NCBI GenBank assembly: GCA_016791475.1
Contig: JAEUWI010000064.1
Span: 1-40,443 of the forward strand
DNA from: Candidatus Hydrogenedentota bacterium
GTDB taxonomy: Bacteria > Hydrogenedentota > Hydrogenedentia > Hydrogenedentales > JAEUWI01
Reading direction: 5' to 3'
DNA: 40,443 bases
The position numbers were made by a program, and so were the translations under genes. The notes under the pieces were generated by a model, which saw only the letters and a list, made by a program, of their open reading frames with translations, searched no databases and was not told where the DNA came from. The first letter of the stretch is position 1; every line of letters begins with the position of its first letter. Of this stretch, positions 29,603-31,071 are shown in pieces.

Positions 29603-30190
29603 CTACGGCGCGGGCGTTGTCTCTGGAACCTGTGCGGGTTCCGAGGGGACTTCCACGGCTTCCTCGACGGCGACGGGCGCAGTTTCGGGCGCGGCGTCTG
29701 CGGCCGGCGCGGGGGCCGGCGCTTCCGAGGGCGGTGCGGGGTTCAGGGGCGCGGCCGAGTTCGCCGGAGGCTTCCCGCCGTGCCAGTGGTTGTGACCGGG
29801 CTCCGGATTGAAGTGCTGGTCCGTCGCTTCGTCGTATTGCCACGGTTCGGGATTGGGGATATTCGGTATCGGCTTGGGCGCAGGCGCGTTCTGGTTGGGC
29901 GGGTGACCCTTGTGCCAGTGCTTGTGGGTGGGATCCCAGTGTTGGTCCGTGACGGAATCATAGGTCCACGGCGCGGGCTCGGGCTTCGCGGCGGAGGCTG
30001 GCTTCAGCTCTTCTTCTGGAAGGCGGATGGGCTCTCGGGAGCCTCCTTGAATTACCGCCACCGCTGCGGCGAATCCGCCGAGCACCACGACCACCGTTCC
30101 GATTCCGACAGCCCAGGGCAGCGATGACGCGCGTTCGACGGGTGCTTCAGCCTCCACCGGGGTCTCGGGGGCTTTGTTTTTCTTCGACAT
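29603..30190 (-). CDS. Membrane-anchored protein with two His/Trp-rich repeats
   Basis: 195 aa. AGGA lies nine bases before the ATG. A soluble, charged N-terminus (1-23) is followed by one membrane helix (about 24-47), with the remainder probably outside. That part holds two repeats of about 25 residues: 74-98 (PW-x-YD-x2-TDQHW-x2-THKHWHKGHPP) and 116-142 (PW-x-YD-x2-TDQHF, HNHWHGGKPP). Each has four or five His plus Trp and Asp, a good candidate for metal binding. The ends are Pro/Ala/Glu-rich. The TerC gene stop is 18 bases upstream, so the two are almost surely co-transcribed. TerC proteins are linked to metal efflux and exoenzyme metalation, so a partner that binds the metal outside the membrane is a reasonable inference. 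I know no named family. Confidence 0.75.
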   Translation of the reverse strand: MSKKNKAPETPVEAEAPVERASSLPWAVGIGTVVVVLGGFAAAVAVIQGGSREPIRLPEEELKPASAAKPEPAPWTYDSVTDQHWDPTHKHWHKGHPPNQNAPAPKPIPNIPNPEPWQYDEATDQHFNPEPGHNHWHGGKPPANSAAPLNPAPPSEAPAPAPAADAAPETAPVAVEEAVEVPSEPAQVPETTPAP

Positions 30191-30208
30191 GATGCGGCGT
30201 CCTACCGG

Positions 30209-30964
30209 TTAGAGCTTCTTGTGCAGGTGGACCTTGTCCGCCTGGCGTTTGCGCATCTTGATGTTGAGCATTTCCACCGCCACGGAGAAGGCCATGGCGA
30301 AGTAGATGTAGCCCTTGGGCACGTGCACGTCGAAGCCTTCCACCATGAGCGTCACACCCACGAGGATGAGGAAAGAGAGCGCGAGAATCTTGATGGTCGG
30401 ATGGGCATCGACAAATTCGCTGATTCCCTTCGCCGCGAAGAGCATGACACCGACCGACAGGATAATGGCCACGACCATAATGGAGACGTGCTCCACGAGG
30501 CCCACGGCGGTGATGACCGAGTCGAGTGAAAAGACGAGATCGAGGACCGCAATCTGGGCGAGAACCGAGCCCACGCTGCGCGGCGCAGAGGCGGCGCCAT
30601 GCCCCTCCACGCCCTCAAGGCTGTGATGGATCTCGTGGGTCGCCTTGGCCAGCAGAAACAGGCCGCCGCCAATGAGTATGAAGTCACGTCCGGATATTTC
30701 CTGGCCCAGAACGGTAAACCAGGGCTCCACGAGGCCCACGACCCACGCGATGGAGAAGACCAGCAGGAGCCGCATCACCATGGCGAGGCCCAGCCCCGTG
30801 TTTCGGGCGAAATTGCGCTGTTTCTCGGGCAGTTTGCCCACCAGGATCGAGATGAAGATGATGTTGTCGATGCCCAGCACGATTTCCAGTGCTGCGAGCG
30901 TACCCAGCGCAATCCAGGCCTGGGTACTGTCGATCCAGCCAAACTGGGCAATAAGCCATTCCAT
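30209..30964 (-). CDS. TerC-family membrane transporter
   Basis: 251 aa. The start at 30964 was picked because it begins the family-typical N-terminus; the ribosome site GGGAG is a bit far (12 bases). It has seven or so membrane helices with family signatures LEIVLGIDNIIFISIL (first helix, with the conserved acidic residues E27 and D33 region) and DLVFSLDSVITAVG in the middle helix, each carrying the conserved Asp. A His-rich loop HEIHHSLEGVEGH lies between helices 3 and 4. TerC/Alx/MeeF-type proteins are associated with Mn2+ export, tellurite resistance and metalation of secreted enzymes. It is followed 18 bases later by the His/Trp-repeat gene. A TTGCAA-17-TAGTCT promoter sits upstream. I see no yybP-ykoY-type riboswitch in the leader. 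Confidence 0.92.
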   Translation of the reverse strand: MEWLIAQFGWIDSTQAWIALGTLAALEIVLGIDNIIFISILVGKLPEKQRNFARNTGLGLAMVMRLLLVFSIAWVVGLVEPWFTVLGQEISGRDFILIGGGLFLLAKATHEIHHSLEGVEGHGAASAPRSVGSVLAQIAVLDLVFSLDSVITAVGLVEHVSIMVVAIILSVGVMLFAAKGISEFVDAHPTIKILALSFLILVGVTLMVEGFDVHVPKGYIYFAMAFSVAVEMLNIKMRKRQADKVHLHKKL

Positions 30965-31042
30965 GATAGTGTCGTTCTCCCGTGACGAAGGTACTGCAAG
31001 GCGGATGCCGGACTCTTCATGGGGCACCCGCGGTTCCCCCGT

Positions 31043-31071
31043 AGACTACCGATTTGAAGCGCCTGTTGCAA
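31043..31071 (-). promoter_or_regulatory. Sigma-70 promoter of the TerC operon
   Basis: On the minus strand, -35 TTGCAA (31071-31066), 17-base spacer, -10 TAGTCT (31048-31043), 79 bases before the TerC start. Beyond it, toward the divergent glycosidase gene, lies a 32-base imperfect hairpin (AGCCTGC 31091-31097 with GCAGGCT 31116-31122). Confidence 0.5.

Follow-up and report, generated by a model that had tools for sequence, protein, structure and literature searches.

The DNA analysed, referred to here as the window, is a stretch of 40,443 nucleotides that makes up contig 64 in the 7.7 Mb genome assembly of a Candidatus Hydrogenedentota bacterium. Two adjacent genes on its minus strand are the subject of this analysis. 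The first (30209..30964) encodes a TerC family membrane protein of 251 amino acids when read from its ATG, with an alternative GTG start at position 31027, and the second (29603..30190) encodes a repeat protein of 195 amino acids, delineated by its open reading frame and translation, by hydropathy, by a helix in the AlphaFold2 (AF2) model and by a homologue within the genus. Bases 30191–30208 separate the two frames, in agreement with a preliminary description of this DNA that placed the repeat gene 18 bases past the TerC stop codon. The end coordinate of 31071 given there was too long, exceeding the TerC start by 44–107 bases, depending on which start is used. As judged by sequence comparison, the repeat frame is a real gene and not a chance frame, because a relative in the genus has a 50%-identical homologue and the repeated unit recurs in 15 genomes with E values down to 1e-16. 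Searches of plasmid, phage, and viral collections gave no match to the repeat, and its derivation from a phage or mobile element was therefore rejected. Elsewhere in the window, positions 26667–28184 of the plus strand encode a 505-residue protein with DUF4236 at its N-terminus and a long uncharacterised remainder.

The repeat protein is made up of a charged N-terminal tail (residues 1–28, with 4 Lys/Arg and 4 Asp/Glu), a membrane helix at approximately residues 29–47, two His/Trp units, and a Pro/Ala/Glu-rich C-terminal tail. The helix corresponds to the single hydrophobic stretch in the hydropathy profile. Both units conform to the consensus PxPWxYDxxTDQH[WF]-HxHWHxGxPP. Unit 1 (PAPWTYDSVTDQHWDPTHKHWHKGHPPN, 29891..29980, minus strand, profile match E 1.3e-14) contains five histidines, His-84, His-89, His-91, His-93, and His-96, and unit 2 (PEPWQYDEATDQHFNPEPGHNHWHGGKPPA, 29759..29854, minus strand, profile match E 1.5e-14) contains four, His-126, His-133, His-135, and His-137, so that the originally noted arrangement of two units with four or five histidines each and one membrane helix is confirmed.

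Range and conservation of the unit

Of the three other genomes in the genus, one yielded the 50%-identical homologue in a full-length search, which also turned up a more remote homologue within the order, and a scan of genome contigs with strict peptides found a third in a Planctomycetota metagenome-assembled genome (MAG). Profile searches then covered genomes of the two phyla. Profile A1, built from nine units, detected the unit in 3 of 68 Hydrogenedentota genomes and, among 121 genomes comprising the Planctomycetota MAG and its relatives, in 11, and profile A3 added one further genome (G870), giving a total of 36 units in 16 proteins from 15 genomes (3 Hydrogenedentota and 12 Planctomycetota). 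In an even sample of 392 genomes from the phylum of the MAG, the MAG itself was the sole match; the distribution is thus patchy and concentrated in one branch.

The 36 units were aligned by profile, with histidine not required at any position, and the resulting conservation figures are somewhat inflated because all members were found by similarity: Trp-24, Gly-27, and Pro-30 are invariant (36/36 each), Tyr-6 is present in 34/35 and Asp-7 in 33/35, His-13 in 32/35, and the three histidines of the HxHWH motif in 31/35, 36/36, and 32/36, respectively, with aspartate replacing the third in the other 4/36. Conservation of the histidines, on which the preliminary description depended, therefore holds at four positions (31–36 of 35–36 units) in two phyla. 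The main exceptions are the units of genomes G520 and G495, which have lost one or two of the four histidines. These data also bear on the possibility that the region is a low-complexity Pro/Ala/His tail that drifts freely and has no specific function. The linkers and the C-terminal tail are variable and rich in Pro, Ala, and Glu, and the patchy distribution would be compatible with drift, but the units are conserved across two phyla although the linkers vary, and their local fold is predicted with confidence, which makes such a tail an improbable explanation.

Predicted fold and known domains

The AF2 model of unit 1 (residues 68–103), which rests on five related unit sequences, is a three-stranded mini-sheet with a mean pLDDT of 86. 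Its predicted strands comprise model residues 10–11, 16–19, and 24–27, and the mean pLDDT is 95 for residues 11–20 and 93 for residues 21–30. The model of the full-length protein is poor (mean pLDDT 56) and is unreliable outside the helix at residues 30–46 and the strands, those of unit 2 being placed at residues 118–120, 125–127, and 136–138 with a pLDDT of about 70. Comparison of the unit 1 model with the PDB using Foldseek resulted in 17 weak hits, none of them significant; the list includes two WW-containing chains, Ess1 at rank 1 (E 2.2, 34 columns) and WW45 at rank 7 (E 8.3), both likewise non-significant. VIA-align returned no match at Z 2 or more, a fold search with the weak full-length model returned no match, and the sole match in a sequence search for solved relatives was glycogen synthase at E 2.5, attributable to chance. 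From the models a WW-like fold may be put forward for the unit, as a suggestion only.

No Pfam or NCBIfam model matched the unit above its cut-off. Matches to Kelch and DUF6732 were marginal, and the Pfam WW model gave no match up to E 10 when tested with 9 and with 25 units. A text search of open-licence papers likewise found no description of such a motif, and the repeat can accordingly be called undescribed, as had been supposed, with respect to Pfam, NCBIfam, and this literature. From its sequence, the unit is an uncatalogued small repeat of the tethered aromatic mini-domain kind. It resembles OCRE (PF17780) and DUF2510-type motifs in being a short repeat of the YD..T/N..[HY][WY] type, and DUF2510-type short aromatic motifs often occur near a membrane helix. 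It differs from them in that OCRE matched a single protein below the cut-off (E 0.059) and DUF2510 was unmatched in the Pfam search of the units.

The likeness to the WW domain of Ess1/Pin1 lies in the length of about 30 residues, the predicted three-stranded mini-sheet, the conserved tryptophan with a proline after it, and the joining to a prolyl isomerase, a parvulin in Ess1/Pin1 and a cyclophilin in one homologue of the present family. In contrast to WW domains, the unit carries a conserved HxHWH motif and is found in an extracytoplasmic bacterial setting. The main rival to a metal-binding role is that the unit is a WW-like module for binding peptides or glycans, in which a Trp/Tyr/Pro mini-sheet would scaffold envelope proteins and the histidines would be structural, with no metal bound. 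The predicted mini-sheet, the invariant tryptophan, glycine, and proline, the ranks of Ess1 and WW45, the one isomerase fusion, and the marginal OCRE match are all consistent with this function. However, every fold hit is non-significant, the Pfam WW model is unmatched at any threshold, and the HxHWH alternation is foreign to WW domains, leaving the WW-like module a genuine possibility that we would nevertheless not call probable.

The adjacent TerC gene

The assignment of the window's TerC to PF03741 is clear (E 3.6e-46; 157.6 bits against a cut-off of 27.8, covering profile positions 2–177 of 178), whereas its scores for the YkoY and YjbE subfamily models are below the cut-off. The 18-base gap has no terminator-like or promoter-like site on the minus strand, and co-transcription of the two genes in this genome is therefore plausible. 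This single gap had suggested that the repeat protein serves the window's TerC as an extracytoplasmic metal holder, in the manner of a metallochaperone. In Bacillus subtilis, TerC proteins load metal into exported enzymes at the Sec translocon (PMC10550928), an activity that would suit a His-rich partner on the outer side of the membrane. The locus is similar to this TerC/MeeF/MeeY metalation system in the adjacency of a TerC gene and in the idea of envelope metal handling, and differs from it in that the linkage of repeat and TerC is not conserved and that the passages of PMC10550928 consulted mention no His-repeat partner.

A search for the repeat combined with a tally of its TerC neighbours found the homologues mostly away from TerC, the outcome that the preliminary description had itself named as speaking against its proposal. 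At the 15 repeat loci outside the window, TerC never adjoins the repeat gene: the 14 fetched loci gave no TerC match by tblastn, with the positive control (L012) recovered, and TerC is absent among the open reading frames of L071 (G870). With PF03741 applied to whole genomes, TerC was undetected in 11 of the 15 repeat-bearing genomes, although these are drafts, mostly lacking a completeness figure, and a few of the absences may be gaps. Three other genomes have both genes, and in all three they lie apart, on different contigs in G001 and G477 and approximately 738 kb from each other on one contig in G540, which counts against a partnership despite the possible gaps in the drafts. Conversely, the closest TerC homologue within the family (56%, G005) occurs in a genome without the repeat gene. 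There is no Rfam match in the window and hence no yybP-ykoY riboswitch, a further point against the partnership, and a Mn riboswitch 5' of TerC was rejected for the same reason. The wider sampling thus removes the link that the gene gap had suggested. TerC is an incidental neighbour of the repeat gene and not a conserved partner, the module family is independent of TerC, and a role of the repeat protein as metal holder for the window's TerC is very improbable. The genome containing the window also has two tandem TerC genes elsewhere (G000:C36:48254-50031, loci L072 and L076), which match PF03741 more strongly than the window's TerC and have no adjoining repeats, all units of this genome being located in the window.

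Topology, architectures, and a possible metal site

In 8 of the 16 proteins, including that of G870, a CxCGSGKxxxxCC sequence (the SEC-C zinc motif) precedes one helix, which is followed by the units; the Pfam SEC-C model is matched at E 2.7e-10 in G040 and below threshold in others. In other members, the window protein among them, the tail is charged and the motif is absent. The window protein contains no cysteine, and both it and its genus relative lack the motif of SEC-C proteins (PF02810), a family whose description does not extend to the repeat part. One protein of the 16, in G476, has a different architecture (a 515-residue frame, L045:5658-7202, minus strand): a signal-peptide-like start is followed by one unit and by a C-terminal cyclophilin domain (PF00160, E 7.2e-48). 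Because a signal peptide precedes it, the unit of this protein would be located outside the cytoplasm. By analogy with this relative, and given the N-terminal SEC-C motif or charged tail, the units of the single-helix proteins are very likely extracytoplasmic as well. Of the earlier statement that the repeats are positioned on the outer side of a helix, the helix is thus confirmed and the side follows by inference from the G476 relative.

Taken with the conserved histidines, this topology points to small His/Trp modules that bind metal, arranged in tandem outside the cytoplasm and tethered to the membrane, a reading to which we give slightly less than an even chance. The computed results fit both this reading and its WW-like rival. 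A single-pass protein with its N-terminus inside and its C-terminus outside would expose two modules at the external surface of the cytoplasmic membrane, each of about 28 residues, three-stranded and composed around His, Trp, and Pro, and each most likely holding one transition-metal ion. The alternating histidines of HxHWH on strand 3 would share one face, and His-13 of strand 2 (TNxHW) would provide the fourth ligand. Four histidines, with aspartate replacing one in variant units, would make a credible metal site. The protein would then buffer metal or hand it over in the envelope. Among its homologues the module is tethered by a helix that follows a charged tail or SEC-C motif, and in one case it is fused to an exported cyclophilin. 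A more specific proposal, that the unit is an undescribed mini-domain with a WW-like three-stranded sheet around the four-His site, serving as a tethered metal buffer or as a folding helper near the site of export, is speculative and rather unlikely in this complete form; its folding-helper and export-proximal elements derive from the SEC-C tethers and the cyclophilin fusion. Against metal binding, the conservation of His is matched by that of Trp, Tyr, Asp, Gly, and Pro, a pattern that a mini-domain with a solely structural or peptide-binding role should show as well, and the histidine losses in G520 and G495 point in the same direction. If the units do bind metal, few repeatable metal modules outside the cytoplasm would be smaller, and a group of hypothetical proteins could be annotated under a domain name.

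The genes next to the repeat loci, read by eye, vary from locus to locus. No shared functional partner was seen among them, nor any recurrent metal-related gene, the latter also counting against metal binding. The neighbours include a GGDEF/EAL protein and an SDR dehydrogenase in G489 and G470, an SDR dehydrogenase in G515, RnpA and a ClC channel in G520 and G495, a phosphofructokinase-type kinase, PilZ, and TypA in G001, glutamine synthetase and TrpA in G476, acetylornithine aminotransferase in G477, a branching enzyme in G545, and a PQQ-repeat protein in G870. Among loci of three related genomes, the SDR dehydrogenase is present at L041, L042, and L048 and the GGDEF/EAL protein at L041 and L048. 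A single predicted frame at L048:4066-5124 (minus strand) contains the peptide LIPPPFKGGGKGVGS twice, a pattern resembling two insertions of a repeated DNA element into coding sequence.
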